The position numbers and the translations under genes were made by a program. A stretch of 64,000 nt of DNA, taken from Liolophura sinensis. Its lineage: Eukaryota > Mollusca > Polyplacophora > Chitonida > Chitonidae. The notes beneath the pieces were generated by a model. That model had not been told where the DNA came from. It saw only the letters and a list, made by a program, of their open reading frames with translations, and did not search any database. The stretch is from contig NC_088300.1 of assembly GCF_032854445.1 (NCBI RefSeq), positions 34,515,608 to 34,579,607 of the forward strand, given 5' to 3'. Numbering within the stretch: position 1 is the first letter of the stretch; the number at the start of each line of letters is the position of its first letter. Positions 45,401 to 48,400 of the stretch are shown piece after piece.

Positions 45401-48400
45401 TCGTATGTGGGAAGGTCTACTAGCAACTGGTTGCCGTCATATATATATATGTATGGGAAATATTCATGAGTGCGGCTTTAACACCAATCAAATAAATAAA
45501 TAAATAAATACATACATACACACATACAAGAACACACACACACATACATACACGCATACATAAATAAATAAACAAATAAATGAATAAAAAAATCAAGGAA
45601 AATAAACAACGCTCTATGGAATATGCCCCTGATTACTGTCACCATTTTACCTGTAGCTGATGGTCGTCAGGTAGGAGATGGTTCACGGCTCTCAGTACAG
45701 CGGGATGATCAGCCAGTAAGCTGTCCACCTTGTCTACAAACTGTGGCAGAGAAAGCCTGAAAAACCATTGGCTTATATTATTATTATTTGTTATTTATTT
45801 ATTTATTCATTTATTTATTATTACTGGTGTTTGCATAAGAGACCATTGACCATTTTCTAGAGTTACTTGACAATAAGCGATCGACGCTCGTTTTGTGGTC
45901 GTTTGTGCTATCTATATAGCATGTCTCCCACTAGTATTATGTGCTTCCTTTTACATCACACCTGGAAAAATTGTCAGTAACTCGACATAGGTCGGTGGTT
46001 TAACCCTAGCACTGATTTCCTCCAACCTTTCAAACTAGACGCCATGGAGTACAAGTGAAAATTATTGAGTAAGGTATTAAATAACAAAAAAATGCCACAA
46101 TTAAATTAGAACGTGTATTCGGAACTTTGCTTCACTTAACACCACATACAATCAAAAAATAAATTTGTTAATTTTATCAGAAAGTTTGTTATCTGAGTTT
46201 CTGTCATCATATCATAAAACTGTGTCATATTCAACATAATTTTCTGCATGTTAGAATCTTTATGTTGATTTAATGGAATATGCGTTTTATATTTAACAGA
46301 GTAATCTGTTGCAATAGCAGAATACAATCTAGCATCAATCAACAACAGACTTTCTGTTAATTCTAACAGATTAATTTTTTTGAGTGTGTTCACATGTCTT
46401 TCAGTTGCTTACGTTTTGTCCTCTAGACCGCCGATGAGAGTCCGCAGAATTTCTCTTGTCTCGGGGTAAGCTTTCAGTTTCTCACTGACGAGTTGTAGGA
46501 TTTCCCTGGGTTTATCAGCGTCCCACGTTATGGCATGGTGCTGGTTACTCAGGGTTCGATTTGCCTGTAAACACAACCATGTGAATATAGGCTTCAGTCA
46601 TACCGAGGCCGAAGCCCAAAATGTTCATGATTTATTTATTTGATTGATGTTTACGTTGTACGGCCTGCGTTATGGTGGAAGCGAACAGGACAGAGCCATC
46701 CGCATTTTGCTGCAGACCTCCCCGCGTACGAATGGAGAGGAAACCAGCATGAGCTGGACTTGAACTCACAGCGGCTGCAGAAATGTTCCTTAGCCACACC
46801 ACAATCCCACCCACACAAGTTGAAGGCATAAGGCCAGCTGTTCCATTTCTCTCCCTATGCAAAATGCGCAGTAGGAATAAAGCAAGGTAATTTACTATTG
46901 TCGTCACTAGGAGAAAATTACAACTCTCAGGTTGCCCCTCAGTTAGCTAACATTATATTATATAAAATGCATCGTGTTCCAACGTGTACCTTTGCCAGCT
47001 AGGTGCAACTGGCGAACCGTGTCGAAAAGACAGACCAGTATATATAGCAAAACATACATACCGGGTACAATATTGTGCGGGTGTTCTCTTACGTATTTCG
47101 CATAGTTTATTCCTAGTCCTCCACCAATGTCAATGTATTTGATATCCTTGAATCCCATTTGCTTCACTTTATTTGTCAACTCCAGCATCTTTTCTACACT
47201 TTCCCTATAAAAGCCAAAAATTAGATGATTGGATCAATAACTTTTTAAGGCCTGATTGCGACTTCTTAAGGTAAGTAAAACACTTCTGGGTTGAAACCGT
47301 GTAAAACATGCTGTGTGACTGGTCTACATTGTAAATACTGGCATTTCAACAGGGAAACAAGATGACAACAAGAAGAGCTAAAACATACAGGAAATATGTC
47401 TGAACTTTTTATAATCTGTCCATGCAATTTCTGATGGTTCTTGGATCAGGGCAACTGATGGTTGCTGAAGTTATAGGACCCTTCCCTTTAGTATGACTTT
47501 CCATTGCTATTCCGTTTTGGAGCATATGCACGCAAGGGCTCGTATGTATTAGGCAATTTAAGGCTTATGTCATAAATTGCAATAGTCAAACTCAGAACAG
47601 GAAGAATTCAAATTGTGGTTAGAGCATTGTTCTGAAGTAAAGCATCAATGAACAAATTTTTAACCTCCTAGAGCAAAACATTTTAATTACAGCCGTGGTT
47701 GAAAATTTAAATCAAGACCTTCGATAAATATGGGGCCGTTATCTTCCAGTTCGAAAACCTCTTCGCTTCTGTCAGAACATGTGCTAACCTGAACACCCTC
47801 GTGTTATCAATGGTTGATCCCAAATGAGAGTGGAGCCCCACCAGCTGGATAAGTGGTTCATCCCGAATCTTCTCCAGCAGTGGCTCCAATCCATCCAGCT
47901 CTACTCCAAACTTGGTCTCCCCGAGGCCCGTAGAGATGTAAGGGTGAACATCCTGCATGGAAGAGAAACAGCGGTGGATATCAAAAATCGCACCAGAATT
48001 TAGAGACATTATTATTAGTAGATGACGATATTTGAATTATGCTAGGGGCTGTTTCAGTTACTACGTTTCATGTATTTACGTGAAAAGTTGGAAGAAAACC
48101 CCAACTGGATAAACTGACAAGAGGGCGCATTTCACGGATAAGGGGTGACCATTTGCGGACTATCACACTTTACTCGTTCTTCTGGCTTTACTCTTTATGT
48201 TACAGTCTTTTAAATTTTATGCAGTTGAATCTGTTGTGTAATTTTATATTATGTATAATATACGGCAGACAACAAATATAATAACCAATGACAAAGCGTC
48301 TTCAATGGCAGCTGCCGCTGTTCCGGCTGCTTGGTCAGGGCGAGGAATGTTGGGTAACTGGCGAGATGCCGTGGTTTCCCTTGGGCTATGAGTGATTTTC

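Follow-up and report, generated by a model that had tools for sequence, protein, structure and literature searches.

What does a stretch of 86 additional residues do in an amino-acid enzyme whose barrel it interrupts, and is it a removable module or a fixed part of the protein? The question is raised by a LysA-like gene, i.e. one for a diaminopimelate decarboxylase-like protein, of the chiton Liolophura sinensis, which lies in a window of 64,000 nucleotides (contig NC_088300.1, positions 34,515,608 to 34,579,607; positions given below are those within this whole stretch). The reading we favour, with a probability of about 0.6, is that the enzyme carries as a regular part, derived from an old insertion, an alpha-alpha-hub resembling the paired amphipathic helix (PAH) domains of SIN3, with helix docking as its putative role. 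The gene is on the minus strand and consists of nine exons with canonical GT/AG junctions, which join into a frame of 552 amino acids with no inner stop. Exon joining confirmed to the nucleotide the symmetric 0-0 cassette that had been proposed from the DNA letters. Exon 4 (46413..46564, 152 nt, phase 0 to 2) supplies the first half, a linker and predicted helices 1 and 2, and exon 5 (45651..45756, 106 nt, phase 2 to 0) the second half, with Leu345 of the link between helices 2 and 3 and predicted helices 3 and 4. Together they make 258 nt or 86 residues (294-379 of the public protein P0001), placed after the GGG loop between [11 protein letters not shown] and ISVPTPEDL. The whole cassette is present, with 100% identity, in P0001 (LOC135468845, Liolophura sinensis, 564 aa), which, compared by eye, has 12 additional N-terminal residues relative to our model.

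The host enzyme is of the LysA type, which upholds the decarboxylase identity first assumed: the protein without the cassette scored 407 bits against TIGR01048, above the curated cut-off of 297.9. The lysine that binds pyridoxal phosphate (PLP), the GGG loop, EPGR, CE and DxGAYC, which we take to have their usual roles in LysA, are invariant across the 19 sequences of an alignment termed A1. Judged by its sequence, the chiton gene encodes a diaminopimelate decarboxylase-like enzyme, which as a true LysA would convert meso-diaminopimelate to lysine as a dimer. Animals are generally regarded as lacking the diaminopimelate route. LysA-like proteins are nevertheless present in acorn worms, amphioxus, sturgeon and many molluscs (P0003, P0005, P0010, P0039 and P0077 in addition to the mollusc proteins); the sturgeon sequence has a long branch in the tree and could be a contaminant. 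Excerpts of the literature state that animals are considered incapable of lysine synthesis (PMC3287585) and count a diaminopimelate decarboxylase of a coral as a candidate for transfer (PMC4878875), and these excerpts of the two papers make no mention of mollusc LysA.

The chiton is not alone in having an insert. The relatives considered were 157 proteins, the union of two protein searches with the best 120 of about 7,770 taken from each, and in every one of them the spacing from GGGxxx to EPGR was measured. It is 117 residues in the chiton (31 without the cassette), 30-35 in 136 of the 157 listed relatives and 48-123 in the other 21. All 14 named molluscs on the list bear an insert at this site, namely Liolophura, Haliotis, Ruditapes, Mactra, Dreissena, Pomacea, Lottia, two Mytilus, Patella, Mizuhopecten, Saccostrea, Bulinus and Biomphalaria, and no mollusc occurs among the named rows with plain spacing, which include amphioxus, acorn worms, sturgeon, plants, algae and bacteria. 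Seven further listed proteins also bear inserts (P0002, P0004, P0008, P0011, P0012, P0047 and P0049); they have 452-525 residues each and are encoded on contigs of only 1427-2848 bases, which leaves scant space for introns and therefore suggests spliced transcripts. Relative to a plain spacing of 32, the inserts measure about 16-91 residues. Those of the clams are the shortest, at about 16-18, and that of abalone has about 55; limpets, oyster, scallop and mussels fall at 62-72, and the pulmonates, apple snail, chiton and P0002/4/8 at 84-91. In the ANRT at the head of exon 4, Thr297 of the chiton is matched by Thr in 17 of the other 18 A1 rows, so the insert starts seem to correspond. The idea of an architecture peculiar to this one gene had thus to be given up. 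The insert seems instead to have been built into the enzyme long ago, and a single-species oddity is unlikely, because other molluscs bear an insert at the identical site. Two of these proteins have other peculiarities. P0013 of Dreissena carries, between LVEPT and the YEVVG segment of its C-terminal domain, a second long additional stretch that no other of the 19 rows of A1 approaches in length at this place, and P0121 of Bulinus (789 aa) has about 270 or more additional N-terminal residues, its decarboxylase match beginning at 312; this excess may be a fusion or a gene-model error.

Resemblance to PAH domains is strongest in the chiton itself. In a phmmer search of PDB sequences, the cassette found S. 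pombe pst2 at an E-value of 0.0024 in a gapless alignment of 60 residues. A small custom SIN3 PAH profile was made of five SIN3/pst2 PAH domains, and the chiton score against it is somewhat raised because the pst2 row was chosen after the cassette had found pst2. The cassette reached 22.7 bits and the Mytilus edulis insert 13.7 bits, and in both cases none of 5000 shuffles scored as well. For the remaining inserts, the number of equally good shuffles out of 5000 was 1 for P0002 and for Bulinus, 4 for Biomphalaria, 9 for M. coruscus, 15 for P0004, 47 for P0049, 57 for P0008, 81 for Lottia, 133 for P0047, 237 for Pomacea, 256 for Patella, 327 for scallop, 738 for Saccostrea and 1051 for Haliotis; the five short clam-type inserts were left out of this scoring. 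Among 2857 six-frame open reading frames in the window, the frame of exon 5 ranked first for the profile (E 3.9e-5). Profile-to-profile comparison by hhalign gave a probability of 94% over 59 columns for the chiton, 34% for P0002/4/8, 26% for the pulmonates and 25% for the mussel type, each with 0 of 100 column shuffles as good, and less than 1% for limpets, Pomacea and Saccostrea (3, 6 and 4 of 100 column shuffles, respectively); Haliotis was equalled by 15 of 100 and scallop by 12 of 60. When the 157 full-length proteins were scanned with the SIN3 profile, only the chiton (17.1) and M. edulis (8.6) rose above the best match elsewhere (5.1). Ten other inserts were scanned alone against Pfam, and for four of them, all of the mussel type, the best family was PAH_ZNF598 (PF23202, E 7.2e-5 to 0.0099), which three of the four mussel-type proteins still list in full-length scans (E 0.0028-0.012). 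PF23202 was not listed for the chiton cassette, whose best Pfam family was PAX at 0.096. PAH likeness extends, to varying degrees, over the chiton, mussel and pulmonate inserts. Other searches were silent: a profile of 13 aligned inserts, whose alignment is poor, returned 23 PDB rows with none significant (best E 0.12) and SIN3 absent; the Mytilus insert alone returned two rows (best E 0.96); and a cassette-only search among decarboxylase-length proteins matched the gene itself and no other of 374 candidates. The HP..L..N..LP signature named in the original prediction is present in helix 4, in a form longer by one residue, HP..L...N..LP ([15 protein letters not shown], exon 5).

The predicted structure points the same way. 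In a model of the full protein, the insert forms four helices at 311-322, 327-341, 347-357 and 362-369 with a hairpin of helices 2 and 3, in keeping with the helical nature first proposed, and the insert folded alone gives four helices again with a mean pLDDT (the model's per-residue confidence) of 68. The helix ends differ slightly between the models, and helix 3 begins at cassette residue 54 in both. With the helix ends predicted in the full model, helices 2 and 3 are connected by a five-residue link, 342-346 DKTLS, which has Leu345 at beta3, a position at which Ile, Leu or Val is expected. In a Foldseek search with the predicted fold, the four best PDB matches were all SIN3 PAH domains (2cr7, 2ld7, 6xaw and 2rmr); families missing from the VIA list of fold matches are not thereby excluded. 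The SIN3 profile, hhalign and the predicted four-helix fold together lend the PAH reading of the cassette moderate support, and it seems largely right, but we write PAH-like because the curated Pfam cut-off was missed.

How old the insert may be was approached with a tree of 52 of the listed proteins, from which the insert region was left out. Seventeen insert-bearing rows (13 named molluscs with P0011, P0012, P0047 and P0049) split off with support of 98/97, and Liolophura lies outside this group, where its order relative to the sturgeon and the remaining rows is unresolved; a chiton lineage that branches first would be placed in this way. P0002, P0004 and P0008, which have the insert, group with P0020, which lacks it, at 96/87 and apart from the 17 rows. 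Between insert groups, 0 of 60 hhalign column shuffles were as good for chiton-mussel, chiton-P0002/4/8, mussel-pulmonate and mussel-limpet, with 2 of 60 for mussel-P0002/4/8, 4 of 60 for chiton-limpet and 12 of 60 for mussel-Saccostrea; the probabilities themselves are 0.04-30%, and only 3.7% for chiton-mussel. These shuffles make a single origin plausible for some of the groups. We infer a probable common origin of the mollusc inserts. In close pairs the insert diverges faster than the remaining enzyme, with 55/71 identical positions versus 87% in Mytilus, 63/83 versus 92% in P0004/P0008, 35/81 versus 73% in P0002/P0004, 42/85 versus 80% in Bulinus/Biomphalaria and 22/61 versus 65% in the limpets. 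Its length is nearly constant in three close pairs (71/71, 83/84 and 85/86 columns) and less so in P0002/P0004 (81/86) and the limpets (61/71). The hydrophobic pattern is retained in seven pairs (0/2000 shuffles each) and between the chiton and four mussel-type rows (58-61 of 72, 0/5000 shuffles), in alignments that were made to match and are hence biased toward agreement. Fast divergence with a kept hydrophobic pattern fits a retained fold with a changing surface.

A number of results weigh against an old PAH-like hub. The pst2 E-value of 0.0024 sums two domains, the better of which alone has an i-Evalue of 2.3, and a designed protein comes next at 0.0088. PF02671, the Pfam PAH family, is not listed for the cassette at E-values up to 10, so that the profile check foreseen in the original prediction failed with the curated family and succeeded with the SIN3-only profile and the fold search. 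The mussel-type matches to PF23202 all fall below the 25-bit cut-off (best 23.4), and the Foldseek E-values are never below 0.001. The inserts of abalone, scallop and clams are not PAH-like. The label 'insert' needs at least two changes across well-supported branches, none of 200 bootstrap trees having a single change, so the tree is compatible both with one gain followed by loss and with multiple gains. For chiton-pulmonate and chiton-Haliotis, 34 and 56 of 60 hhalign column shuffles were as good. Since the inserts of several molluscs are short or featureless, the role of the hub is not vital in all of them.

With these points taken into account, a LysA-like enzyme with a built-in PAH-like hub is still the reading that we prefer. 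According to the model, the hub would sit in the beta7-alpha7 loop, directly behind the PLP-phosphate-binding GGG and at the active-site face. The insertion would be old, since it is found from chiton to mussel to snail at one site with chiton, mussel and pulmonate versions still PAH-like in some degree, and the inserts of other molluscs may have shrunk or become featureless. By analogy with known hubs, the hydrophobic cleft probably takes up an amphipathic helix, either of a candidate partner protein or of the enzyme's own tail, and docking at this face might place, gate or regulate the enzyme. A bolder version, which we consider doubtful, is that since before the chiton split from other shelled molluscs LysA has carried at its active-site face a docking domain of the SIN3/ZNF598 type, through which the helix of a regulator or scaffold gates or places a lysine-making enzyme that perhaps uses diaminopimelate of digested bacterial walls.

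The same data could also be explained without any hub, if the loop behind GGG grew repeatedly in mollusc LysA, some of the products became helical bundles, PAH likeness arose by analogy and the loop serves as a lid or as near-neutral decoration. The range of lengths from about 16 to 91 residues would suit this, as would abalone and scallop inserts that do not resemble SIN3 PAH (the abalone insert does not resemble that of the chiton either), divergence that outpaces the enzyme, at least two label changes on the tree, and the opinion, in an excerpt of a review, that alpha-alpha-hubs are analogous folds (PMC7948954). Repeated growth is harder to reconcile with the identical site in all 14 named molluscs, with a chiton cassette that beats every shuffle against SIN3 PAH (0/5000 by profile, 0/100 by hhalign) and has SIN3 PAH as its top four fold matches, with the chiton-mussel link (0/60 shuffles, at the low hhalign probability given above) and with the near-constant length in three close pairs, if less in P0002/P0004 and the limpets. 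We regard repeated expansion of the loop as rather unlikely.

The cassette had been called removable, which would make the gene a splice switch that yields either a docking protein or the plain enzyme. The 0-0 phases allow it, and skipping both exons would indeed restore a plain enzyme, with the frame kept (466 aa) and a spacing of 31, the plain value. Joint skipping of the two exons would be required, because dropping just one of them destroys the frame; a single chiton protein was found, and exon 4 begins with a stretch that is translated in other molluscs, as the alignment of Thr297 indicates. No insert-less form occurs in the protein sequences of the 14 named molluscs or of P0011, P0012, P0047 and P0049, which fall inside the main mollusc group of the tree, so removability finds no support and a splice switch appears improbable. 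Less credible still is an annotation artefact in which the exons of a nested or adjacent PAH gene were mis-joined to the decarboxylase. The public entry is presumably a prediction, and support in the chiton comes from a gene model rather than from RNA; but phases and strand fit exactly, and other molluscs have inserts at the same site, in some cases on contigs that could scarcely accommodate many introns. A nested PAH gene was rejected as the second-best match to the SIN3 PAH profile in the 2857 six-frame stretches of the window reached an E-value of only 0.75.

If the hub is what it seems, an alpha-alpha-hub has been incorporated into metabolism by way of the barrel of an amino-acid enzyme, and the graded mollusc series, from PAH-like inserts to short loops, would show retention or loss of a domain at one fixed site; attention would also be drawn to LysA genes in animals. 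To our knowledge no other alpha-alpha-hub is placed inside a metabolic enzyme. The open-access literature contained nothing that joins diaminopimelate decarboxylase with a paired amphipathic helix, with amphioxus or with Lottia, nor anything that joins ZNF598 with a PAH domain, and what it offered on diaminopimelate and lysine synthesis in bivalves looked unrelated. In the excerpts seen of two papers, such hubs are interaction domains of regulators and scaffolds (PMC7948954, PMC7788954).

The rest of the gene, all on the minus strand, is as follows. Exon 1 spans 48580..49146, and the public model begins 36 nt upstream, at 49182. Exon 2 (47789..47952) encodes a part of the barrel with the GLHSHLGS motif, exon 3 (47093..47204) ends in the 11-residue segment that precedes the cassette and is followed by an exon in phase 0, and exon 6 (44864..45021) carries [14 protein letters not shown]. 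The CESGD motif is in exon 7 (44497..44653), DAGAYCSSM in exon 8 (43139..43234), and exon 9 (42402..42548) includes the stop codon. The cassette is preceded by intron 3 (46565..47092) and followed by intron 5 (45022..45650), which holds an ATAC array; intron 4 (45757..46412) is in phase 2, in the codon of Thr344 of P0001, and interrupts the predicted helix 2-helix 3 link. Intron 3 holds one copy of a dispersed repeat (46695-46779, coordinates derived from the query positions of the repeat search), with others in the window at 41641-41725 and 61988-62067 and 79-81% identity. Elsewhere in the window there are a histone 3' untranslated region stem-loop (RF00032, 57414-57459, minus strand, 36.7 bits), an open frame of 1037 residues (24327-27437, plus strand) with no Pfam match at E-values up to 0.1, and minisatellite-like open frames of short repeated peptides at about 16016-17202 and 63342-63731 on the minus strand.

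As compared to plant and bacterial LysA (TIGR01048; Arabidopsis 6n2f), the chiton protein has the same barrel, C-terminal sheet domain and motifs, and over the 416 residues aligned with 6n2f the identity is 48%. It differs in the 86 additional residues that separate predicted strand 7 from helix 7. SpeA, an arginine decarboxylase of the same fold class, also has a helical bundle (PF17810), and SpeA 3nzp is among the fold matches; the two insertions were not taken as equivalent because the E. coli bundle, at residues 392-478, lies at a different site, beyond the entire PLP-binding domain match (101-367). The fold matches also include TAF4-RST, eTAFH and CCM2 harmonin-homology domains (7ac1, 4ykd and 2knh), which rank below SIN3 PAH in Foldseek, and the Patella insert has an RST match at E 0.011. 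An intron just before the helix 2-3 link is reported, in the excerpted review, only for RST and TAFH genes (PMC7948954). The PAH domain of ZNF598 (PF23202) is the best Pfam family of the four mussel-type inserts, below cut-off, and is unlisted for the chiton cassette. The SIN3 PAH domains (2cr7, 2ld7, 6xaw, 2rmr and those of S. pombe pst2) are alike in the four predicted helices, the five-residue link with Leu at beta3, HP..L...N..LP in helix 4 and the gapless 60-residue alignment with pst2. They differ in that the chiton cassette is not listed under PF02671 and has an intron inside the helix 2-3 link, and in that SIN3 carries several copies in a corepressor, whereas the chiton has a single copy inside the barrel of an enzyme.
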